Below are positions 850-12,606 of a stretch of 35,587 nt of DNA, piece by piece. The stretch lies in contig VGMU01000023.1 of the NCBI GenBank assembly GCA_016866385.1, positions 1-35,587 of the forward strand, given 5' to 3'. Position numbers and translations under genes: made by a program. The DNA comes from Bacteroidota bacterium. GTDB lineage: Bacteria; Bacteroidota; Bacteroidia; Cytophagales; Cyclobacteriaceae. The notes under the pieces were generated by a model. The model had not been told where the DNA came from. It saw only the letters and a list, made by a program, of their open reading frames with translations, and did not search any database. Each line of letters starts with the position of its first letter. Position 1 is the first letter of the stretch.

Positions 850-1581
850 CTAACTCAAATACATTTTCAATTCAGGAATCCCAATTTCCTTAAAGTGAAA
901 AATACTAGCTGCTAAGGCTGCATCTGCTTTTCCACTGGTAAAAACCTCCTTGAAATGCAGCATGCTACCCGCACCACCTGAAGCAATTACTGGAATCGAT
1001 AAAGACTCCGAAATGCCTGCAGTTAGGTCTAGGGCAAAGCCTCCCTTGGTTCCGTCATGATCCATGGAGGTAAGCAAAATCTCTCCAGCTCCTCGATCTG
1101 CCAATTCCATCGCCCAAGACTTCGTTTGCAAGATAGTTGATTTTCTTCCTCCGTGGGTATGTACCCAATCTATTCCTGCTACTCGCCGGGTATCTATGGC
1201 TACTACTACACACTGAGATCCAAAAGCTTTTGCCATCTCGTTGATGAGGCTAGGCTGATTCACTGCGGCCGAATTGATAGAAATCTTATCAGCTCCTGCA
1301 GCCAATAGCACCTGTACATCTTCTAAGGAAGTAATCCCCCCTCCTACAGTAAAAGGAATGGTGATCTCTTTGGCCACCTCAGTAACCAATTTTGCCAAGG
1401 TTTTTCGCTTGTCTACTGTAGCTGTAATGTCTAAAAACACCAATTCATCTGCTCCTTGCGCTGAATAGAGCTTCGCCAAAGCTACAGGATCACCTGCATC
1501 TCGGAGCTCCACAAAATTCACCCCCTTGACCGTGCGGCCGTCTTTAATATCTAAACAAGGAATGATGCGTTTGGTAAGCAT
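850..1581 (-). CDS. hisF: Imidazole glycerol phosphate synthase, cyclase subunit
   Basis: Cyclase half of the HisH-HisF enzyme, which uses ammonia from HisH to convert PRFAR into imidazole glycerol phosphate and AICAR. It is a (beta/alpha)8 barrel starting [19 protein letters not shown]. The two catalytic aspartates are visible as D11 (CLDIKDG) and D130 (VAIDTRR). Phosphate-binding loops TVGGGI and SGGAGS are present, as is the usual C-terminal [10 protein letters not shown]. The length of 243 is slightly short for the family (about 250-258), with no motif missing. It starts at an ATG and lies 125 bases downstream of hisA. Confidence 0.97.
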
Positions 1582-1706
1582 ATATAGGTTAAATAGTTGT
1601 ATAAAATTAGGTGATTATTCATGAATCTAGTTGGAGATTAAAAACGAACTTGAATCCTAGGAAGGATGATCCAAAGTCCTTGGTATTGGGTCCATCGCAA
1701 CTTTGC

Positions 1707-2429
1707 TCAAGGAGAAACAAAATGAGTGAGCTCTTCCAAACTCACCTTTCCCTCGTAATAGGCCTTTCCCACAACGATTCCATAGACTCCTAATTTTTGC
1801 AAGTCCTCTAGGTCCTTCACAGAAGACACCCCTCCACTGGCGATTAATTTGAGCTCTGGAAATTCCTGCAGAATTTCACGATAAAGAGCAAAGGAAGGCC
1901 CTTGAAGCAAACCATCTTTTGCTACATCGGTGCAAATTACTTCCCTCACTCCCCATTGCACATATTTTTTTAGAAATGGAATCAATTCCTCAGCAGAAGT
2001 TTCCTCCCATCCAGAGACAGCAATTTTCCTTTCCTTTACATCGGCACCCAGGATGATCTTCTCGGCTCCATGGGTAGTTAGCCAATGTTGAAAAAGACTT
2101 GGATTTTTCACGGCAATACTCCCCCCAGTGACCTGCTTGGCACCCAATGCGAAAGCTTTTTCAAGTTCTTGATCCGATTGTACCCCTCCTCCAAAGTCTA
2201 CCAGCAGGGAGGTTCCCTGACAAATTTTGGCTAAAACCTCCCCATTTATGATTTTTTTGGCTTTGGCGCCATCCAAATCTACCAAGTGCAGTCGCTTGAG
2301 GCCTGCCCCTTCAAAGCGCTTGGCCATCTCCAAAGGATCCTCGTGGTACTCAGTTTTACGATAATAATCACCTTGGCTCAGGCGAACGCATTTGCCCTCA
2401 ATAAGATCTATAGCCGGAATTACATGCAT
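1707..2429 (-). CDS. hisA: ProFAR isomerase (HisA)
   Basis: Converts ProFAR to PRFAR, the step before HisHF. It is a (beta/alpha)8 barrel of 240 residues related to HisF. Catalytic Asp8 sits in PAIDLIEGKCVRLSQGDY, and the second Asp at about 130 sits in LGADVKERKIAVSGW. Phosphate loops VDFGGGVQS and IASGGVSS are also present. The start MHVIPAIDL at 2429 is the standard family N-terminus. It lies between hisH (57-base gap) and hisF, in the usual H-A-F order of the histidine pathway. Confidence 0.97.
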   Translation of the reverse strand: MHVIPAIDLIEGKCVRLSQGDYYRKTEYHEDPLEMAKRFEGAGLKRLHLVDLDGAKAKKIINGEVLAKICQGTSLLVDFGGGVQSDQELEKAFALGAKQVTGGSIAVKNPSLFQHWLTTHGAEKIILGADVKERKIAVSGWEETSAEELIPFLKKYVQWGVREVICTDVAKDGLLQGPSFALYREILQEFPELKLIASGGVSSVKDLEDLQKLGVYGIVVGKAYYEGKVSLEELTHFVSP

Positions 2430-2487
2430 GATTTTAATGCTTAGGAGCTAAGGAATAAATTAACGTACCCTCCAGATATGTACTAAA

Positions 2488-3087
2488 TTAAGTGGAAGGT
2501 AATGCTAAGAAATTTTCTAACAGCTTTTCTCCCAGAATACTACTTTTTTCGGGATGGGCCTGTACAGCCCAAAAATTGTCTCGATTCAAAATAGCGGTAA
2601 AGTCCTGAATGTAGGAAGTCGTCGCAAGCGTATGCTCTCCCAATTCTGCATAGTAGCTATGCACATAGTACAGGTACCTGACATCTGGCAAATGGTTGAG
2701 TAATGGATTTTCTTTTATGTTTTTGATTTTATTCCATCCTACATGGGGCACTTTTTCCCATGCAGCGGGAATAAATCGCTTGACCTTGATGGGAAATATG
2801 CCCAAGCAGTCTGTATCGTTCTCCTCAGAGTGAGCGCATAGGAGTTGCAAACCCAAGCACACCCCTAAAAAGGGCTGCTTGATTTCCCGAATTACCTTAT
2901 CCAAATTACGATTCTTCAGGTAGGACATGGCAGAACTCGCTTCCCCCTGCCCAGGAAAAATCACCCGATCGGCAGAAAGGATTTTTTCCTGATCGTCGGT
3001 GAGTTCGGCTTCTACCCCCAAACGCTCTAGGGCATAAAGTACGGATTGGACGTTGCCTGAATTGTATTGGATTAAAACTACTTTCAT
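2488..3087 (-). CDS. hisH: Imidazole glycerol phosphate synthase, glutamine amidotransferase subunit
   Basis: Class I glutaminase that supplies ammonia to HisF. The nucleophile Cys77 lies in FLGVCLGLQLL, and the His-Glu pair is in AVQAHPEKS near residue 180. The oxyanion-strand region reads FPGQGEASSAM. The N-terminus IQYNSGNVQS differs from the common I-D-Y-G-x-G-N form but keeps the fold signature. The length of 199 is normal. It is the first his gene of this cluster, 49 bases downstream of the phenylalanine hydroxylase stop. No attenuator or TAnnTTTG box was found in front of it, so it is probably cotranscribed with the upstream genes. Confidence 0.96.
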   Translation of the reverse strand: MKVVLIQYNSGNVQSVLYALERLGVEAELTDDQEKILSADRVIFPGQGEASSAMSYLKNRNLDKVIREIKQPFLGVCLGLQLLCAHSEENDTDCLGIFPIKVKRFIPAAWEKVPHVGWNKIKNIKENPLLNHLPDVRYLYYVHSYYAELGEHTLATTSYIQDFTAILNRDNFWAVQAHPEKSSILGEKLLENFLALPST

Positions 3088-3136: not shown

Positions 3137-3919
3137 TTAATTTTTATTTTCCATCTGCATCAGTTCCTCCAGAACGATTTCTATTTCTGGAAGGGAGGCA
3201 AACAACTGTTCGTAATTTTCAATGACCCAATACTTATCCTGGAAATGATCCTTCCAATAGGCCGTGTTCATGATGTGGCGCACTTCGTAAGGATAATGCT
3301 TGGGTTCTTCCGTCAAAGAATAGGAGGTTTCTCCAGCGGAACTCAAAATTCCTGCTCCATAGACTCGAAGTTGTCCATTTTCACGAATGAGGCCAAACTC
3401 AATGGTAAACCAATAGATCCTACTGAGCAACTGTATGGCCCAAGGATTTTGGATGTGTTTGAGGGCCAGAATGCTCAATTTTTCAAGAAAATCTACATAG
3501 GGTTGATTGGTCAGCAAAGGTAGGTGGGCAAAGGCATCGTGAAACATGTCTGGCTCTTCCAAGTAGTCCAACTGCTCCATTTTGCGCAACCACGTGGAGG
3601 AGGGAAAACGCTTGTTGCTCAGCAAGCCAAAAAACAAGTCGTCGTCAATCAATCCAGGGACCACCTGTACCTGCCATCCAGTAGTCTTTCGGAGGATCTC
3701 GTTTAGTTCCTCAAAATTCGCAATTCTATCTGAAGTAAATTTTACTGTTTTCATCCCCTCCAAATAGGCTTTGGAGGCCGTATGCAGCAAGTTTGGCATT
3801 TGCCTTTCAAAAAGAATCTTCCATACCTTGGCATCTTCTTCTGTGTAGGCCGCGTAGTCTTGACGCAACTCTTTTAATCTCGGGTCAGAAAAGACCCACT
3901 CTTTGGGTTTTTCATTCAT
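3137..3919 (-). CDS. phhA: Phenylalanine 4-monooxygenase
   Basis: Pterin-dependent, non-haem iron hydroxylase converting phenylalanine to tyrosine. The iron-binding 2-His-1-Glu facial triad is visible as His127 and His132 in EPDMFHDAFAHLP and Glu174 in WFTIEFGL. VVPGLIDDDLFFGLLSNKRFP matches the conserved substrate/pterin region. The ATG at 3919 gives 260 residues, the compact bacterial catalytic-domain form without a regulatory ACT domain; a GTG at 3970 would only add an unlikely tail. It is a same-strand gene between trpA and hisH, an odd place for it. A tryptophan hydroxylase activity cannot be excluded from sequence alone, but the bacterial family is normally Phe-specific. Confidence 0.93.
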   Translation of the reverse strand: MNEKPKEWVFSDPRLKELRQDYAAYTEEDAKVWKILFERQMPNLLHTASKAYLEGMKTVKFTSDRIANFEELNEILRKTTGWQVQVVPGLIDDDLFFGLLSNKRFPSSTWLRKMEQLDYLEEPDMFHDAFAHLPLLTNQPYVDFLEKLSILALKHIQNPWAIQLLSRIYWFTIEFGLIRENGQLRVYGAGILSSAGETSYSLTEEPKHYPYEVRHIMNTAYWKDHFQDKYWVIENYEQLFASLPEIEIVLEELMQMENKN

Positions 3920-4074
3920 GGTATTTGGGTTTATAGGGTCTGTATCCCCACTTTTTTGGTAGCACTCCACACTCTTTTCAGTGGATATCTGGTGATGCGC
4001 AGGACTAAGTTACGCAGTGATTTGCCCTCAAGCAACTCCAGTTATACGAAGCCTATGCGCGAAAAGATATATCC

Positions 4075-4848
4075 TCATCCCCGTACTTCTGAAAGAAAGT
4101 TTTTGATATCCTGCTTCAGCTCCTTGGAATCTTTGATTTTCTTAATAAAGGCCGATCCCATGATCGCTCCATTGCTATATCGAGAGGCAAGTTGGAAGGT
4201 AGCAGCATCTGAAATCCCAAAGCCAATGAGTCTGGGATGATTCAAATTCATGGCAGCGATACGCTCAAAGTACTGCTCTTGCTCTTCAGAAATCGCTGAT
4301 TTTGCCCCAGTAATGGCATGGGAAGAGACCATGTAAATAAAGCCCTGAGAATAGCGGTCTATCTCTCGAATTCGGGCTTCTGAGGTTTGGGGAGAGATTA
4401 AGAAAATATTGAAAAGGCCGTACCTCTCAAAAATTTCTTTGTACTCTTCCAAATAATGACTCATGGGAAGATCTGGAAGTATCAATCCATCGATACCTAC
4501 TTCTTTACATTTTTTGCAAAACTCCTCTACCCCAAACTGGATGATTGGATTGAGGTAGCCCATGAGGATAACAGGGACATGGATTTTGGCTCGGAAGCCC
4601 AGCAATTGAGAAAATAATTTTTTTATGCTCATTCCATTTTCCAGGGCTATGGCATTGCTTTCCTGTATGGTTGGCCCATCTGCAATGGGATCAGAATAGG
4701 GTAGACCTATTTCAATCAGGTCAGCGCCCCCCTCCTGAATGGCTTCCAACACGGGTAGCGTGTCCTCCAACTTGGGAAATCCGGCAGTAACGTAGATGGA
4801 AAGGAGGTCTTTATTCTTGTTTTGAAACAAATAATTGATTCGATTCAT
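4075..4848 (-). CDS. trpA: Tryptophan synthase alpha chain
   Basis: Cleaves indole-3-glycerol phosphate to indole and glyceraldehyde 3-phosphate; the indole is channelled to TrpB. Catalytic residues are visible as Glu46 (IEIGLPYSDP) and Asp57 (DPIADGPTIQ), equivalent to E49 and D60 of the E. coli enzyme. The length of 257 residues and the TIM-barrel phosphate loop GFGISDAAT are typical. It starts at the ATG at 4848, 76 bases after the trpB stop, and is the last gene of the trp operon proper. A 155-base gap without a recognisable terminator separates it from phhA. Confidence 0.97.
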   Translation of the reverse strand: MNRINYLFQNKNKDLLSIYVTAGFPKLEDTLPVLEAIQEGGADLIEIGLPYSDPIADGPTIQESNAIALENGMSIKKLFSQLLGFRAKIHVPVILMGYLNPIIQFGVEEFCKKCKEVGIDGLILPDLPMSHYLEEYKEIFERYGLFNIFLISPQTSEARIREIDRYSQGFIYMVSSHAITGAKSAISEEQEQYFERIAAMNLNHPRLIGFGISDAATFQLASRYSNGAIMGSAFIKKIKDSKELKQDIKNFLSEVRG

Positions 4849-4924: not shown

Positions 4925-6103
4925 TTAGTAATTTCCCCATTGGATATAAGTTTCCAAATCTTTATCTCCCCTTCCAGATAGGTTGATCACAATAAGATCG
5001 CTTGGGCGATAGGAAATTTGATGAAGTGCATGGATGGCGTGGGCCGTTTCGATAGCAGGGATAATCCCTTCCGTTCGACTTAAAAGAATGCCTGCCTGCA
5101 TTGCATTCTCATCCTCCACAGCCACAAATTCTGCTCTACCAATATCATGAAGGTGGGCATGGACTGGACCTATTCCCGGATAATCCAATCCTGCGGATAT
5201 GGAATGCGGTTCGACTACTTGCCCATCCTCGGTCTGCATCAGCAAGGTCTTAGATCCATGCAAAATGCCAGGTGTACCCAAAACCGAAGTAGCTGCTGAC
5301 TTTCCCGAATGTATTCCCAATCCCGCTGCTTCTGCCGCGATGAGCCTGACCGAGGGCTGGTTGTAATAATGGTAAAACGCACCGGCTGCATTGGATCCTC
5401 CCCCCACGCAAGCAATCACGAGATCCGGATTTTCTCTACCTTCCTTGGCTAGCAATTGTCGTTTTATCTCCTCTGAAATCACCGATTGAAAGCGGGCCAC
5501 CATCTCGGGGTATGGATGCGGACCTACCACGGATCCGATGATGTAATGGGTACCCACGGGATCGGTAATCCAAGCCCGCATGGCCTCGTTGGTGGCATCT
5601 TTTAGGGTTTTCGAGCCTGACACAGCCGGAACTACCTTGGCACCTAGGATACGCATGCGCTCCACATTGGGACGCTGGCGCTTGATGTCTAGTTCGCCCA
5701 TGTAGATGGTGCAGTCCATTCCCATCAATGCACATACCGTAGCCGTGGCCACTCCATGCTGCCCTGCTCCAGTCTCGGCAATGATGCGCTTTTTGCCTAG
5801 TTTCTTTGCCAAAATGATCTGCCCTACGGTATTGTTGACCTTGTGAGCTCCCGTATGGCAGAGGTCTTCTCGCTTGAGGTAAATCTTGGCACCAAAACTC
5901 TCAGATAGCCTAGCAGCAAAATAAAGCGGGGTAGGGCGACCTACAAAGTCGCGAAGTAGCCCCTGAAATTCTTCTTGAAAGTCCGAACGGGAGACAATGG
6001 TCTCCCAATTTTCTCGAAGCTCTTCCACGTTGGGATACAGCATTTCAGGGACATAGGCCCCGCCAAACTTTCCATAAAACCCTCTTTCGTCAACTTGTAT
6101 CAT
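4925..6103 (-). CDS. trpB: Tryptophan synthase beta chain
   Basis: PLP enzyme that condenses indole with serine to give tryptophan. The PLP lysine is Lys88 in HTGAHKVNN, and the phosphate cradle is GGGSNAAG. The N-terminus [14 protein letters not shown] is the TrpB1 signature. ATG at 6103 gives 392 residues, normal for the family; a TTG eight codons upstream is not needed. It lies 31 bases after trpF and 76 before trpA. This is the canonical TrpA-partnered TrpB1 rather than a TrpB2 paralogue. Confidence 0.98.
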
Positions 6104-6134
6104 CCTTTTTCCTTTAATGGTCTCCAAAGAGACA

Positions 6135-6761
6135 TTAGCTTTTCAATTTTTCTTTAAATGCTTTTAAGTCCGCTATTTTTTTTACCCCTGGGGCAAATTC
6201 AAAACCTGAGTTGACATCTACCCCTAGCAACTGAGGGAATTTTTGGCTCAAAGCCACTAGCTCATCGGCATGGGCCAAAGTCAGGCCTCCTCCCAGCACA
6301 AAGCCCGTTTCAAAAGGGTAAGACTCTAGAAGTTTCCAATCAAAGGTCTTTCCTGAGCCACCCTTGCTTTTTGTGTCCGTATCAAAAAGAAAACGATCCA
6401 CATAGGGAACAAAGGCCTCCCATGCTTTCCAGTCTATCTCTCCTCCTACCGGTATCACCTTCCAAATTTTAAGTTCAGCCAATTCCTGGAGTCGCTGTAT
6501 CTCGTCTAAGGACTCTCCACCATGCAGCTGCAAAGCCGAGAGTCCAAACAAATAGCTTTTACGCAGGATAGCTGTTTCTTTTTCCCCCACAAATACCCCT
6601 ACCTTCTTCAAAGGTAACTCCTTGATCCATGCGGCATCCTCCTCTGACACTACTCGGGGAGAAGGGGGATAGAAGATCAATCCCATCCAATCGGGTGCTA
6701 CCTCCTCGACCAAGTGCAGGCAGTTGGTCCTCTCCCGCATCCCACAAACTTTAATTTCCAT
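6135..6761 (-). CDS. trpF: Phosphoribosylanthranilate isomerase
   Basis: Amadori isomerase converting phosphoribosylanthranilate to CdRP. It is a TIM barrel of 208 residues starting [10 protein letters not shown] with the active-site Cys6. [18 protein letters not shown] and GVDVNSGFE are the conserved phosphate- and substrate-binding segments. Its ATG lies inside the end of trpC (11-base overlap), indicating translational coupling. TrpF is a separate protein here, not fused to TrpC as in enterobacteria. Confidence 0.97.
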
Positions 6762-7581
6762 ATCCTGCTTTTCCCACTCTGTTTTCTCCCATCAATCGGG
6801 AATATTCTTCCATGAATTCTGCCGCTGCTCTTTCGGGGCTAAGAGTTTTCATGAAATTTTCTCCAATCAGGAAGCCATCGAATCCCACCTTTCGGAATGC
6901 CACCAAGGTACTGGGATCGGAGATGCCACTTTCTGAAATTTTGACTACCTGCTTTGGGATCCTGTCTACCAGCTCCAGGGAAGTATCCACGGATACCTCA
7001 AAGGTTTTTAAATTCCGATTATTCACCCCCACCACATCCAAAGGCTCACAAAACGATTGCTCCAACTCTTCCAAATTATGCACTTCCAAAAGTACCTCTA
7101 GACCCAGACTTTGAGCAAAAGTGGCCAAGGAGTTTACCTTTTCAGGACTTAAGGCGGCAGCAATTAGTAAAATACAGTCGGCTCCCATGGATTTGGCTTC
7201 TAGGATTTGGTATTCGTCTACCACAAAATCCTTTCTCAAGATAGGGATAGTGACCTGCCCCCGGGCTAGTTCAAGGTCTGCTGTGCTACCTCCAAAATAG
7301 AATTGGTCGGTTAAAATGGATAAAGCAGAAGCACCAGCCTGCTCGTAGCCCTTGCTCACTACCTCCACGGAGGAGGTGCCGTTGATTAGCCCCTTAGAGG
7401 GAGATTTTCGTTTAAACTCGGTAATGATGCCTGACTTGGTAGGATTTAGTAGGAAAGTTTTCAAAGAAAAGGTGGGCCTGGAAAAAAAATTACTTTTTTC
7501 CAAATCAGCGACAGTCCGCAGTTTTTTTCTCTCCTCCACTTCCAAATACTTGTCAACAATGATTTTTTCTAGGGTATTCAT
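6751..7581 (-). CDS. trpC: Indole-3-glycerol phosphate synthase
   Basis: Closes the indole ring, turning CdRP into indole-3-glycerol phosphate. Family motifs are ITEFKRKSPSKG (catalytic Lys), ALSILTDQFYFGGS, ILRKDFVVDEYQI, GVNNRNLKTFEV and SESGI, in the order expected along the TIM barrel. The length of 276 is slightly above the usual 255-270. It starts 10 bases after trpD and overlaps trpF at its 3-prime end, so it sits in a tight operon. Confidence 0.97.
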   Translation of the reverse strand: MNTLEKIIVDKYLEVEERKKLRTVADLEKSNFFSRPTFSLKTFLLNPTKSGIITEFKRKSPSKGLINGTSSVEVVSKGYEQAGASALSILTDQFYFGGSTADLELARGQVTIPILRKDFVVDEYQILEAKSMGADCILLIAAALSPEKVNSLATFAQSLGLEVLLEVHNLEELEQSFCEPLDVVGVNNRNLKTFEVSVDTSLELVDRIPKQVVKISESGISDPSTLVAFRKVGFDGFLIGENFMKTLSPERAAAEFMEEYSRLMGENRVGKAGYGN

Positions 7582-7591
7582 CAGAAACAGC

Positions 7592-8602
7592 TTAATTGAA
7601 GGATACGGAGGTTTGGGGTTGGATCAATCCTTTAAAGACCCGAAGGGCCTTGCCACTCTGTAAGGTTTCTTGTGCAAGGGCAATCGCGTCTTCAAAGCCC
7701 AAGTCTTCACGGGAAGTCACCAAGGCAGCAGCAGCATTGGCGATCACCACCTGATTTTGACCTGGGCTACCTTCTCCTCGAAGCACCTGCTCAAAGATAC
7801 GTGCAGACTCGGCAATGCTAGCTCCTCCAAGAATACTTTCTGGGGAGAGCGTGTCTAGGCCTAAAGACTGAGGATGGTAGAGTTTTTCTCCTTCTTGGGT
7901 AATCATTTTAAAGGGGCCAGTAAGGGAAATCTCATCGTAACCGTCTAGGGCATGAAGGATAGCAAACCTGCTATCGGTTTCTTGGTAGAGGTAGCCGTAG
8001 AGCCTGGCCAATTCTAAACTAAACACGCCCACGAGTTGCTTTTTTGGAAAACTTGGATTGACCATAGGTCCGAGCATATTGAAGAAGGTCTTCACTCCGA
8101 GCTCCTTCCGGATAGGCGCCACACTTTTCATGGCAGGGTGAAATAGCGGGGCATGCAAGAAACATAGTCCTACTTGATCCAAACTGCGCCGCAGTTGGTC
8201 CGGATCTGCGCTAAACTCGTATCCAAAATAGGAGAGCAAATTGGATGATCCACAGATGGAAGATACTCCCGTATTGCCATGCTTGGCCACCGCTTGCCCT
8301 GCTCCTGCCACAATAAAAGAGGAGAGCGTAGAAATATTGAAGGTATCCTTTCCGTCTCCCCCCGTACCACAGAGGTCCATAGCATCGTATTCGGAGAGGT
8401 CAACCGGAACGCAAAGTTCGAGCATGGCCTCCCGAAACCCTCGAAGTTCCTCCACGGTGATGCTTCGCATCAGGTAGACAGTCATAAAGGCTGCTACTTG
8501 GCTGCTGGGATAGGAACCCAAAGCCAAGTTTTTCAAAACCTCTTTGGCCTGCTGTTGGGTGAGCGTTTTATGGGCGATCAGGTGATTTAAAATTTCTTTC
8601 AT
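7592..8602 (-). CDS. trpD: Anthranilate phosphoribosyltransferase
   Basis: Transfers phosphoribose from PRPP to anthranilate. The PRPP-binding loop CGTGGDGKDTFNIST is clear, followed by KHGNTGVSS, FLHAPLFHPAMK and FNMLGPMVNP. The ATG at 8602 (MKEILNHLIAHKTLTQQQA) gives 336 residues, the family norm. The longer reading that begins at 8635 would overlap trpG and is rejected. It lies 17 bases after trpG. It is a stand-alone TrpD, not fused to TrpG. Confidence 0.97.
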   Translation of the reverse strand: MKEILNHLIAHKTLTQQQAKEVLKNLALGSYPSSQVAAFMTVYLMRSITVEELRGFREAMLELCVPVDLSEYDAMDLCGTGGDGKDTFNISTLSSFIVAGAGQAVAKHGNTGVSSICGSSNLLSYFGYEFSADPDQLRRSLDQVGLCFLHAPLFHPAMKSVAPIRKELGVKTFFNMLGPMVNPSFPKKQLVGVFSLELARLYGYLYQETDSRFAILHALDGYDEISLTGPFKMITQEGEKLYHPQSLGLDTLSPESILGGASIAESARIFEQVLRGEGSPGQNQVVIANAAAALVTSREDLGFEDAIALAQETLQSGKALRVFKGLIQPQTSVSFN

Positions 8603-8619: not shown

Positions 8620-9186
8620 TTAGGATTGAAGCCAATTTTGAATAAGCTTGGCCCCATGCTCAGTGAGGATACTTTCTGGGTGAAATTGCACTCCCCGCAG
8701 GTCAAAATTCTTGTGCCGTATGGCCATAATGTATTGGTCTGCAGTCCTAGCTATAATCTCCAATTCCTCTGGAAGCGTAACTTCTTCAATGACCCAGGAG
8801 TGGTACCTTCCCACTTCAAACTGGGTAGGAAGTCCCTCAAAGAGTACATCAGGAACGGCAGTTAGTGTAGCCGCAACCCCATGATGAACCTCGGCCAAGT
8901 TGTGAAGTTTGCCCCCAAAAGCTTCTCCTATGGCTTGGTGACCTAGGCAAATCCCAAGGATGGATTTACTGGAAGCATAGCGCTGGATCACTTGAGGCAT
9001 CAGTCCAGCCTCAGCCGGGATCCCTGGTCCTGGGGAAAGTAGAATTTTGTCATATGCCTTTACTTCTTCCAAAGGAAAGGCATCGTTTCTAAGGATATCC
9101 AATTCCTCTCCATAGCCTAGCCTTCGGATCAGGTAGGCCAGGTTGTAGGTAAAGGAATCGTAATTGTCTAGAAGCAATATTCTCAT
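8620..9186 (-). CDS. trpG: Anthranilate synthase, glutamine amidotransferase component
   Basis: Glutaminase subunit feeding ammonia to TrpE. Seen in the sequence: DNYDSFTYNL at the N-terminus, LSPGPGIP, the nucleophile Cys80 in GICLGHQAIGEAFGG, and the His-Glu pair in VQFHPESI near the C-terminus. ATG at 9186 gives 188 residues, the normal size; a longer reading from 9228 would overlap trpE. It begins 10 bases after the trpE stop. The family also includes PabA, and one amphibolic subunit can serve folate synthesis as well. Location in the trp operon supports TrpG. Confidence 0.96.
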   Translation of the reverse strand: MRILLLDNYDSFTYNLAYLIRRLGYGEELDILRNDAFPLEEVKAYDKILLSPGPGIPAEAGLMPQVIQRYASSKSILGICLGHQAIGEAFGGKLHNLAEVHHGVAATLTAVPDVLFEGLPTQFEVGRYHSWVIEEVTLPEELEIIARTADQYIMAIRHKNFDLRGVQFHPESILTEHGAKLIQNWLQS

Positions 9187-9196
9187 AGGACTATCC

Positions 9197-10606
9197 TTAA
9201 ATCTGTTCTGCTGTCTGCAAAGCGACACGCAAGGCTTCCAGCTTGTTGGCTACTTCTTGCAATTCGGAAGAAACATCGCTTTTGGCCACTACCCCTGCAC
9301 CTGCTTGGAAACGCAAGCTATTGTTTTGAGAGACGAAAGATCGAATGATGATGGCATGGTTAAAATCTCCATTGAATCCCAGGTACCCTATGGCCCCTCC
9401 GTAAAATTGACGACTTACCTTTTCGAGTGCATCGATCAATTCCATAGCACGGTACTTTGGAGCACCCGAGAGGGTCCCTGCGGGAAAGGTATCGGCGACT
9501 AACTGCAGCGGGTTGGCTCCCTCTGGGAGAACACCGGTCACCTTAGATACCAAATGGATTACATGGGAATAGTATTGTACCTCCTTAAAGACTTCTACTT
9601 CCACCAAATCTGAGGAGCGGGATAAGTCATTTCTAGCCAAATCTACCAGCATCACGTGTTCGGCATTTTCTTTGGGATCGTCGTAGAGTTTACGAGCCAA
9701 GGCGGCATCTTCTACATCGTTGCCCGTCCGTCGGAAAGTTCCTGCGATGGGATACAGGGTCGCTTTCCTGTTTTTCACCACAATTTGAGCTTCTGGAGAA
9801 CTTCCAAATACCTTGAAAGAACCGTAATCAAAATAAAACAGGTACGGAGAAGGATTGACTGAGCGCAGGGCACGGTACACATTAAACTCGTCTCCTTTGA
9901 AGGCTGTGGTAAAGCGACGAGAGAGAACCAGCTGAAAAACATCCCCTCGAAGACAATGCTTTTGAGCCTGGGACAATAAATCCAAAAACTCCTGGTCACT
10001 GTAGTTGGAAACCTCCTCCCCTACTTTTTTAAAACCATAAGAAGGAATGTTTTTGTTGTGCAGCAGGGTCTCGATCTCATCGAGAAAGGAGGATAAAGGG
10101 GCGTCCTCAGGAAGGTGTTCGAAAAGGTGAAGTTCGTTTTTGTAGTGATCCACCACGATGATGTTTTGATACATGGCATAGTACATCATGGGGATTTCTG
10201 AGACTTGGGTAGTTTGAAGCTTGATGTCTTCAAACCAAGCTACTGTATCGTACTGGGTGTAACCAAAAAGACCATTGCTACTAAACTTGAAAGCATCCGA
10301 AACCGGCCGAAAGGCATTGCCAAATCTCTGCAAGCAGTCCATCAAGGGCTGTGAAGCACCTACTTCGTAGCAATTTTCTTCTCCATTGGGCATTTTTTCA
10401 GTGACTTTGCCTGAAGAAAAAGAAAAAGAAGCCAGGGGATTGAAGCAGATATAGGAGTAGCTATTGTCTTGGCCACGATAATCCGAAGACTCCAACAGTA
10501 TGGGATTGGCAAAGCGATCGCGAACCTGCAAGTAGATACTCACTGGGGTGATGGTATCTGCTAATTTTTTACGGTATTCGGTGCGTATGGGAAAATTTTG
10601 TGTCAT
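9197..10606 (-). CDS. trpE: Anthranilate synthase component I
   Basis: Converts chorismate and ammonia to anthranilate, the committed step of tryptophan synthesis. The chorismate-binding C-terminal half shows GDVFQLVLSRRF, SPEAQIVV, PIAGTFRRTG, ENAEHVMLVDLARND, TLSGAPKYRAMELI and GAIGYLGFNG. Near the N-terminus, ILLESSDYR contains the LLES element that binds the feedback inhibitor tryptophan, so allosteric inhibition is likely retained. The ATG at 10606 gives 469 residues. It is the first structural gene of the operon and starts 20 bases after the U-tract of a leader terminator, so its transcription is probably controlled by attenuation as well as by feedback. Confidence 0.97.
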   Translation of the reverse strand: MTQNFPIRTEYRKKLADTITPVSIYLQVRDRFANPILLESSDYRGQDNSYSYICFNPLASFSFSSGKVTEKMPNGEENCYEVGASQPLMDCLQRFGNAFRPVSDAFKFSSNGLFGYTQYDTVAWFEDIKLQTTQVSEIPMMYYAMYQNIIVVDHYKNELHLFEHLPEDAPLSSFLDEIETLLHNKNIPSYGFKKVGEEVSNYSDQEFLDLLSQAQKHCLRGDVFQLVLSRRFTTAFKGDEFNVYRALRSVNPSPYLFYFDYGSFKVFGSSPEAQIVVKNRKATLYPIAGTFRRTGNDVEDAALARKLYDDPKENAEHVMLVDLARNDLSRSSDLVEVEVFKEVQYYSHVIHLVSKVTGVLPEGANPLQLVADTFPAGTLSGAPKYRAMELIDALEKVSRQFYGGAIGYLGFNGDFNHAIIIRSFVSQNNSLRFQAGAGVVAKSDVSSELQEVANKLEALRVALQTAEQI

Positions 10607-10626
10607 AAAGCGGAAATAAAGGCATG

Positions 10627-10661
10627 AAAAAAGGCTTACCGGGAAATCCAGTAAGCCTTTT
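10627..10661 (-). terminator. trp leader intrinsic terminator (attenuator)
   Basis: On the minus strand, AAAAGGCTTAC (10661-10651) pairs perfectly with GTAAGCCTTTT (10639-10629) around an 11-base loop, and a run of six T ends at 10627. That is an 11-bp stem followed by a U-tract, placed 20 bases before the trpE ATG and after the leader peptide stop. A terminator between promoter and first gene is the hallmark of an attenuator. Confidence 0.88.
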
Positions 10662-10710
10662 GGAGTATGATTTGCGCAATAATTAGGCAAGGGCTTTCTG
10701 AGCTTTCCCG
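10640..10710 (-). promoter_or_regulatory. Predicted trp antiterminator helix
   Basis: The leader segment after the Trp codons can pair with the 5-prime arm and loop of the terminator. CGGGAAA (10710-10704) pairs with TTTCCCG (10646-10640), CAG (10700-10698) with CTG (10651-10649), AAGCC (10696-10692) with GGCTT (10657-10653), and, after one bulged C, TT (10690-10689) with AA (10659-10658). That is 17 base pairs, mutually exclusive with the terminator. A ribosome stalled on the Trp codons (10736-10728) would leave this segment free; one that reaches the stop at 10683 would cover most of it. The pairing is seen in the sequence; function is inferred. Confidence 0.75.
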
Positions 10711-10760
10711 AGGAAAGAGTAGAAATGCCACCACCACTTGTTATTTGCGTTTGTTTTCAT
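10683..10760 (-). CDS. trpL: trp operon leader peptide with three consecutive Trp codons
   Basis: A 25-codon ORF (ATG at 10760, TAA at 10685-10683) begins MKTNANNK and continues WWWHFYSFLGKAQKALA. Three consecutive TGG codons are at 10736-10728. Its position between a TAnnTTTG promoter and the trpE attenuator marks it as a regulatory leader peptide whose translation senses charged tRNA-Trp. When Trp is scarce the ribosome should stall on codons 9-11, letting the antiterminator form; when Trp is ample the ribosome finishes and the terminator forms. The peptide itself probably has no other role. It is too short for routine gene callers and easily missed. Confidence 0.9.
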   Translation of the reverse strand: MKTNANNKWWWHFYSFLGKAQKALA

Positions 10761-10770
10761 TGCTTGAACA

Positions 10771-10800
10771 CAAATTTAGAAAGCCTTTGGAATTAGCAAT
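10771..10800 (-). promoter_or_regulatory. Predicted trp operon promoter
   Basis: Minus strand: TAAATTTG at 10778-10771 is a perfect match to the Bacteroidota -7 consensus TAnnTTTG, with ATTG (10800-10797) 18 bases upstream as a -33-like element. Transcription would start at about 10763-10768, only a few bases before the trpL ATG at 10760. The leader peptide would then be translated from a nearly leaderless mRNA. Confidence 0.7.
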
Positions 10801-10848: not shown

Positions 10849-12606
10849 CTAGGTAAAATAATACAGGGCCCAAGTGGTAATTGCCATCAAGATGGAGGAG
10901 GAAATTCGGACTGCGTTTTTAGGCTGACGAAAATCTAACCACACCCACAAACTGAGAAGAGCTGCCAGCAAAGATACGCTGCTAGGCTGCACCCCAAAGT
11001 AAAAGATCAGCAGCAACATCAATCCTTGGGAAATTAAAAAATAGGTTAAACGCTTAAAATCGATGGGATTTTCGAAAAATTCTTGTTCACGTTTTGCCCG
11101 CAAACCAAGGCTCATACCTACCTGAATGCAAATACAAATCACAAAGACCACAAATACCCGGTGCATAAAATTGAGCTGAGTCCCAAACCAGGTTCTCCAA
11201 AATTCAAAGTTAGAAAGCCAGGAGTCATACAACCATTCTACTGCCAGGCTTAGAATAGGTGCCGCCAGGATGACTACCGCTGCAGAGGCGGGATGTACCC
11301 TTTTCCATAGCACCCCCAAGAAAAAGGCGGACACCACTCCTGGCTTCAGGTAGGAGGTATTTTTAGATAAAACAAGGAAAAAATTGCCTTCAGAATTTGG
11401 ATCAAAGCTCCACCATGCCAGCCCTACTCCCAAGAGGCAAGCCAAGACCACTGCTCCTTTACCTACTGCCACCAGGAGAACATCTGGTGCCTGGGTATGC
11501 AGGTAGCGTTTGTATACATCGATGGCAGCTATGGTAGAAAGGGAATTCAACATGGAATAAATGCTTGAAAAAATGGCCCCTAAAAATCCAGCCAGTATCA
11601 AGCCAATCAGGCCATATCCTTGGGGAACCACTTGTTTCATGAGGTAAATAAACGCATCGTCTGGCTTGACGTGATCTAGGGCATATTTATATTTAAACAA
11701 ATACGCAGCGGCAACCCCTGCGGAAATAGAGAAAAAAGGAATGGTAAGTTTTAAAAAACCAGCAGCAATAGCTCCCAACTGCGCATCTCTATCCGAACGG
11801 GCAGCAAGGACGCGCTGCACCTCAAACTGGTTGGTGGTCCAAAAAAATCCATGCAATATCAATAGCCCACTAAAGACCCCCGTCCAGGGCAGATCGGGAT
11901 GATTGCTGGGAAGGTATAAATTCATTTTCTGCATGCCTTTTTCTGAAGCATCTAAATCCATCAGTCCTGAAAATCCTCCGATTTCGGGCTGAAGAAGCGT
12001 AGAAACACCAACGGTGATAACAGCCACGACCATGAGAAAGGTGATGATATTCTCTGCCCGTACTACCGCGCGCATACCTCCAAAAAACACCAAGAGGCAA
12101 GAGATGGTGGCGATGAGGATCACACCGAGGAGGTAATCTGGGGCATATCCTGTGCCCTGCAGAAGCAATCCCAACTGCCTACTTCCAATATAAAGTCCGC
12201 CGACCAGCAAAATGAGGATGACTGCTAGGATGACCAGGGTGTAGAGCAAGCGAGCGGTTTCATCGTACCTATCCCCCAAATATTCTGAAAGCGTAAATGC
12301 TTTTTTCTGCCGGTAGGCAGGGATAAACACAAAACAGAGCAGGAGGATGGTGGGGATAGCGAGAAACTCGTAATGACTTTGTGCAAAGCCAATGGAATAG
12401 CCAATGCCAAGCATCCCGATGATCTGAGAAAGACTCACATTGGTGCCGTAAATGGAACCCGCCACGGACCACCAAGGCAAATCCCTGTCTGCCATAAAGT
12501 ACTTGGAGGAAGAGCCTTTGCTTCCTGAAGTCTTAGCTGCAAGGACAAACCAAAGGATGCAGAGCAGAAATACAGCCAAGTCAAAATCCTGAAGCAAACC
12601 GATCAT
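10849..12606 (-). CDS. Sodium:solute symporter family transporter (SSS)
   Basis: Inner-membrane sodium-coupled transporter of the SSS/SGLT family. It has 585 residues with roughly 13-14 hydrophobic segments. The N-terminal SKYFMADRDLPWWSVAGSIYGTNVSLSQIIGMLGIGYSIG corresponds to the conserved first repeat, and FLGAIFSSIYSMLNSLSTIAAIDVYKRY to the well-conserved sodium-site helix near residue 350. The substrate cannot be read from the sequence; relatives move sugars, myo-inositol, amino acids or sialic acid. It starts 30 bases after the SsuD-like gene stop and probably shares its transcript. Its stop lies 48 bases before the trp promoter, and no clear terminator separates them. Confidence 0.9.
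   Translation of the reverse strand: MIGLLQDFDLAVFLLCILWFVLAAKTSGSKGSSSKYFMADRDLPWWSVAGSIYGTNVSLSQIIGMLGIGYSIGFAQSHYEFLAIPTILLLCFVFIPAYRQKKAFTLSEYLGDRYDETARLLYTLVILAVILILLVGGLYIGSRQLGLLLQGTGYAPDYLLGVILIATISCLLVFFGGMRAVVRAENIITFLMVVAVITVGVSTLLQPEIGGFSGLMDLDASEKGMQKMNLYLPSNHPDLPWTGVFSGLLILHGFFWTTNQFEVQRVLAARSDRDAQLGAIAAGFLKLTIPFFSISAGVAAAYLFKYKYALDHVKPDDAFIYLMKQVVPQGYGLIGLILAGFLGAIFSSIYSMLNSLSTIAAIDVYKRYLHTQAPDVLLVAVGKGAVVLACLLGVGLAWWSFDPNSEGNFFLVLSKNTSYLKPGVVSAFFLGVLWKRVHPASAAVVILAAPILSLAVEWLYDSWLSNFEFWRTWFGTQLNFMHRVFVVFVICICIQVGMSLGLRAKREQEFFENPIDFKRLTYFLISQGLMLLLIFYFGVQPSSVSLLAALLSLWVWLDFRQPKNAVRISSSILMAITTWALYYFT

Follow-up and report, generated by a model that had tools for sequence, protein, structure and literature searches.

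The 35,587-nucleotide stretch of DNA analysed here (the window), from an Algoriphagus-like member of the Bacteroidota, carries, at the head of its trp operon, an element that is very probably a ribosome-mediated transcription attenuator of the kind known from E. coli. This reading is built on a leader ORF with Trp codons, terminators in the window and its relatives, partner permutation of the helices, co-variation in the terminator, folding with the ribosome at defined positions, and the trp operon downstream. The sequences establish the individual parts, show that these are conserved, and show that all three helix pairs fit when divergent relatives are compared. These findings support the original prediction of this element as real, conserved, and correctly interpreted. 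The observation is not new in kind, since the Bacteroid-trp RNA (RF01692) was published in 2010 and clues to attenuation in Flavobacterium psychrophilum are given in passages of PMC9723704. The fresh detail is the predicted near-leaderless start of the leader peptide mRNA. What emerges is a clean trp attenuator that is kept across a family and has counterparts elsewhere in the phylum; these bacteria initiate translation without Shine-Dalgarno pairing. The features are as follows.

10849-12606, minus strand: symporter gene, on the same strand as the leader, ending 187 nt before the terminator hairpin
10771-10799, minus strand: promoter, with TTG at 10799-10797, an 18-base spacer, and the -7 box TAAATTTG at 10778-10771
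10761-10766, minus strand: predicted 6-nt 5' UTR, start site at about 10766, placed by setting the G of the -7 box at -5
10683-10760, minus strand: leader peptide ORF, 25 codons plus stop, ATG at 10760, stop codon at 10685-10683
10728-10736, minus strand: Trp codons 9-11, TGG TGG TGG
10686-10735, minus strand: span of helix 1:2 (anti-antiterminator), in which the Trp codons pair with the ORF end (folding, partner permutation)
10692-10711, minus strand: segment 2, 5' arm of the 17-bp antiterminator (folding)
10639-10657, minus strand: segment 3, 3' arm of the antiterminator, comprising the terminator 5' arm, its loop, and part of its 3' arm (folding)
10627-10661, minus strand: intrinsic terminator (helix 3:4), T6 at 10632-10627 (folding, co-variation)
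9197-10606, minus strand: trpE, anthranilate synthase component I (TIGR00564, 408.7 bits, under its own cut-off of 517.7)
8620-9186, minus strand: trpG (TIGR00566, above cut-off)
7592-8602, minus strand: trpD (TIGR01245, above cut-off)
6751-7581, minus strand: trpC (NF001377, above cut-off)
6135-6761, minus strand: trpF (best model 131.3 bits, under its cut-off)
4925-6127, minus strand: trpB (TIGR00263, above cut-off)
4075-4848, minus strand: trpA (TIGR00262, above cut-off)

The attenuator thus heads a same-strand operon with the order trpEGDCFBA. No model scored above its cut-off for trpE or trpF, and these two calls rest on E-values, gene order, and neighbours. Past trpA, a phenylalanine 4-monooxygenase-like gene follows on the same strand (3137-3970, minus), and three genes at 850-3087 (minus) match glutamine amidotransferase and histidine-biosynthesis domains, so that the trp operon adjoins his-type genes. 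Ahead of its ATG, the trpE frame has no stop codon across the terminator and as far as a TTG at 10690, which falls in the leader ORF region (9197-10690, minus); automatic annotation could for this reason make trpE too long at its 5' end and obscure the attenuator.

The leader ORF at 10760-10683 (minus) translates to MKTNANNKWWWHFYSFLGKAQKALA, and both its 25 codons and the TGG TGG TGG at codons 9-11 read as originally predicted. Likewise, the best pairing of 10711-10692 with 10657-10639 has the 17 pairs claimed for the antiterminator (-23.5 kcal/mol as a duplex). The terminator had been described as an 11-bp helix with a T6 tract. The tract stands, and the fold of 10661-10628 has 14 pairs (about -20 kcal/mol), the 11 bp being its core. 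With two flanking bases the hairpin reaches -20.7 kcal/mol (z = -7.2), which none of 200 shuffles equals; the leader without the terminator does not fold strikingly better than its shuffles (z = -1.0, 29/200 as good). Twenty-one bases lie between the terminator end and the trpE ATG at 10606. A generic promoter and terminator scan reported neither the trp-leader promoter nor the terminator. The promoter, which had been rightly foreseen before the leader, is of the Bacteroidota type, not sigma-70, and the hairpin came from folding.

Conservation was assessed by a TrpE search of genome contigs, from whose longer list of matches the best 80 loci were retained. These are mostly from Algoriphagus, followed by other Cyclobacteriaceae (e.g., Aquiflexum, Belliella, Cecembia, Echinicola, Cyclobacterium, and Lunatimonas) and a few more distant Cytophagales. 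An ATG-initiated ORF with two or three consecutive Trp codons was present within 400 nt upstream of trpE in all 80 of these best-scoring loci, as expected for a conserved short Trp ORF, and within 250 nt in all except L061 (262 nt) and L101 (266 nt). When 400 kb from a genome of the same genus served as background, only 3/262 long ORFs had such a short ORF in their upstream 250 nt. A terminator-like hairpin with a T-run follows the leader ORF in 81/81 cases (the 80 loci and the window). Phylum-wide, a TrpE match was obtained in 136/148 genomes, and 27 loci (L122-L148, with L121 left out), taken from among the top scores rather than at random, were analysed further: 25/27 have a leader with consecutive Trp codons, 2/27 have Trp-Leu-Trp, and 27/27 have a terminator-like hairpin.

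Several side observations were made on these loci. In L061 (Algoriphagus winogradskyi) the terminator end lies 128 nt from the TrpE match, compared with 36 in its close relative L068, and the extra DNA (L061:1870-2000) contains AT-rich inverted stretches. A similar excess is seen in L101, where the terminator lies 141 nt before TrpE, compared with 26 in L102. Three MAG contigs titled Spirosoma fluviale (L034, L039, and L040) share the leader with the window and encode a TrpE with 84-87% identity to that of the window, which suggests that they are mislabelled. Furthermore, in 3/15 relatives scanned, the strand opposite to trpE carries a Bacteroidales small SRP RNA (RF04183) some 1.0-1.35 kb upstream of the gene (L060:652-744, L082:790-880, and L101:929-1021, minus strand).

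The pairing register shifts between genera and fixed columns reveal no co-variation of the antiterminator; the helices were therefore tested by partner permutation. With 16 representatives less than 75% similar and 20000 permutations for each helix, permuted partners were as good as the native ones in 68/20000 cases for helix 1:2, 41/20000 for 2:3, and 0/20000 for 3:4; with 32 representatives (again 20000 each), the count was 0/20000 for each of the three. All three competing helices thus fit their own partners better than permuted ones, as their retention in relatives requires. An all-pairs swap test over 73 distinct of the 81 sequences gave 2160 divergent pairs that are not independent, which is why the permutation was repeated on representatives. 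In this test the native partner was better in 67.5% (1:2), 77.6% (2:3), and 86.2% (3:4) of pairs and worse in 30.9%, 19.6%, and 2.5%, respectively. Single swaps beat the native partner in a fraction of 0.33-0.39 of cases for helices 1:2 and 2:3, which counts against these two. Compared with shuffled segments, z was below -2 in 27/73 (1:2), 42/73 (2:3), and 70/73 (3:4) sequences, and the window itself has values of -1.8, -2.6, and -6.9.

Fixed-column alignments were made of 42 Algoriphagus-type sequences (A1) and 37 family sequences (A2), out of 76 distinct ones. Compensatory changes had been looked for in both helices. They are found in the terminator, which is 93.5% paired in A2 with both-sided change in 7/14 pairs (0/500 shuffles as high), but not in the fixed columns of the antiterminator among the 42 Algoriphagus-type sequences of A1, where it is 85.8% paired compared with 23.5-59.6% when the arms are slid against each other. 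In A1 the terminator (97.3% paired) is also without both-sided change, and helix 1:2 (86.0% paired) has three both-sided pairs, which is not beyond shuffles (65/500 reach that). The antiterminator is thus supported by conservation within the genus and by partner fit across genera, as judged from these alignments.

The leader peptide itself is also conserved beyond the Trp codons within Algoriphagus (MKTIANKYWWWHS...GKAQKA). This would suit a role in which the peptide or the terminated leader RNA acts mainly in trans and the cis switch is secondary, as for peTrpL/rnTrpL of Sinorhizobium meliloti, and passages of PMC7298713 do describe a trans-acting, leaderless trpL in that species. We consider such a primary trans role very unlikely here: the conserved C-terminal codons coincide with segment 2 and could be kept by RNA pairing alone, and the fit of the helices persists between groups in which the C-terminus is altered or lost. 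Sensing of Phe and Tyr through an HFY motif after the three Trp residues was considered as well and dropped, HFY being found only in the window and L031 of the 81 leaders.

For the cis-acting attenuator, folding was modelled with a ribosome footprint of 12 nt from the first base of the A-site codon, which is an approximation, and with the terminator 3' arm (arm 4) held open. Segment 3 pairs upstream (at least 5 bases) in 81/81 leaders whether the ribosome sits on the first of the Trp codons or on the last, compared with 24/81 when the ribosome is at the stop codon, in agreement with the E. coli-like logic that had been proposed. When the ribosome is absent, segment 3 still pairs upstream in 55/81 leaders, which counts against the scheme. 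In the window, the numbers of segment 3 bases paired upstream are 10, 10, 3, and 3 (first Trp codon, last Trp codon, stop codon, and no ribosome), which in this model is as the classic attenuation scheme wants. If all pairs are allowed, the terminator form is better by a mean of 9.6 and 8.7 kcal/mol in the two stalled states, so that the order of folding must decide the outcome, as it does in attenuation in general.

The start site, translation, stalling, folding order, and termination are the steps that we infer. RNA polymerase would start about 6 nt before the 25-codon leader ORF, with a ribosome close behind. When charged tRNA-Trp is scarce, the ribosome would stall on the three Trp codons and cover segment 1, segments 2 and 3 would pair as the 17-bp antiterminator, the terminator would come too late, and trpEGDCFBA would be transcribed. 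When Trp is plentiful, the ribosome would reach the stop codon and mask segment 2, the terminator 3:4 would form, and a transcript of about 139 nt would be released. Without translation, 1:2 and 3:4 would form, and transcription would stop too. In the L060 group and in Cyclobacterium, the stop codon is placed ahead of segment 2 or at its very beginning, which counts against the scheme; there, helix 1:2 re-forming after ribosome release may do the masking.

A real switch could also act through control of trpE translation or through an RNA-binding protein rather than through ribosome and termination, and with only 21 bases between them the terminator could touch trpE initiation. This is very unlikely: the conservation of both the leader ORF and its Trp codons indicates that the ribosome is the sensor, T-runs follow the hairpin in all 81 leaders, and the distance between hairpin and trpE reaches 141 nt among the relatives (L101). 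That the hairpin is simply the terminator of the same-strand symporter gene ending 187 nt before it, and the ORF a product of chance, is hardly credible given the conserved promoter box and Trp ORF in between, the rarity of such short ORFs upstream of other long ORFs (3/262), and the co-variation of the hairpin with the ORF segment in partner permutation.

The attenuator may have a further property, which concerns its promoter. In 78/81 leaders the ATG of the leader ORF is preceded by a perfect TAnnTTTG, most often at a distance of 10 nt, as in the window, where ten bases separate the -7 box from the ATG at 10760; L105 and L110 are among those with no perfect box. The G of the -7 box maps to -5 (PMC6847099), as is also stated in passages of PMC9723704. 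From promoter position only, and allowing in-frame ATGs before the Trp codons, a 5' UTR of 4-13 nt is predicted in 79/81 leaders, with a mode of 6; by the same measure it is shorter than 10 nt in 66/81 and 6 nt in the window. In the phylum-wide set, a perfect box lies 4-20 nt before the leader ATG in 21/27 loci. For comparison, the -7 box was found within 150 nt of 45/262 long ORFs in the 400-kb same-genus sample, and in 3/45 of these it was within 13 nt of the first ATG, first-ATG starts being approximate. According to passages of PMC7366714, about 3.7% of 5' UTRs in Bacteroides thetaiotaomicron are shorter than 10 nt, and passages of PMC9723704 give 5.5% leaderless mRNAs for F. psychrophilum; 87% of leaders exceed 10 nt in F. 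johnsoniae (PMC6847099). The short predicted 5' UTR of the trp leader hence looks unusual for the phylum, and it opens to testing a link between leader-peptide timing and leaderless initiation. We give even chances to the proposal that the trp leader peptide of Cyclobacteriaceae, and of many other Bacteroidota, is made from a nearly leaderless transcript, with a 5' UTR of about 4-13 nt under selection, and that attenuation rests on initiation at the 5' end. If so, a ribosome would load once the RNA leaves the polymerase, tightening the coupling that attenuation needs. When 400 kb of one same-genus genome was screened for further near-leaderless ORFs that contain amino-acid runs, two ORFs came up, neither of them convincing.

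RF01692, "Bacteroid-trp", is listed as cis-regulatory in Bacteroidetes in passages of Weinberg et al. (PMC2864571), and Rfam describes it as "Bacteroidete tryptophan peptide leader RNA". The family and the window element are both Bacteroidetes leader RNAs with a short Trp-codon ORF. They align over the full length of the model (1-131 of 131), with the start codon, the Trp codons, and the AAAAGGCUU arm in register, at 29.2 bits and thus below the cut-off of 49, and the window locus is the only RF01692 match in its own genome at E up to 10. None of the 15 loci tested (of the 80 relatives' loci) reached the cut-off; within the order, 5 of 118 genomes exceed it, all of them outside the window's own family. 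In the reciprocal direction, a clade model (R1) built from 37 leaders finds all five above-cut-off loci (L111-L115) at 36.5-45.0 bits, and 17/27 phylum-wide leaders score above 25.2 bits, the best score on a 200-kb background. On the window's own genome, R1 gives 109.8 bits for the element (a training sequence), 27.4 for its antisense, and nothing else above 23.5. On the strength of the full-length alignment and the reciprocal detection, the element is probably homologous to RF01692, but without formal membership, as its score is under the cut-off. The current RF01692 threshold overlooks the trp attenuator in the relatives tested. This kind of attenuator is already known in Bacteroidota, and the window is a below-threshold case of it; a literature search that covered few subscription papers returned no description of a trp attenuator in Algoriphagus. 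Three other Rfam matches, RF02377 SurA (21.2 bits, cut-off 100) and two weaker ones, were rejected as chance matches.

In the E. coli trpL attenuator, Trp codons in a leader ORF, three competing helices, and a terminator before trpE provide the switch, and all of these are shared by the window. The window differs from it in its Bacteroidota promoter, its predicted 6-nt 5' UTR, and its three consecutive Trp codons, and the E. coli-type Trp leader of Rfam has no match to the window at E up to 10. Within the same phylum, passages of PMC9723704 report "strong clues" for leader-peptide attenuation before amino-acid operons in F. psychrophilum; these passages do not name trp, and the likeness to the window is by description. 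The attenuator logic is set out for both S. meliloti and E. coli in passages of PMC7298713, where S. meliloti trpLE(G) is described as a Trp attenuator whose RNA starts at the leader ATG and encodes a 14-aa peptide with activity in trans. By prediction, the transcript of the window starts nearly at its leader ATG as well, whereas the S. meliloti system, as described in those passages, is alphaproteobacterial, has a peptide of 14 aa instead of 25 codons, and is the one for which trans activity is reported.
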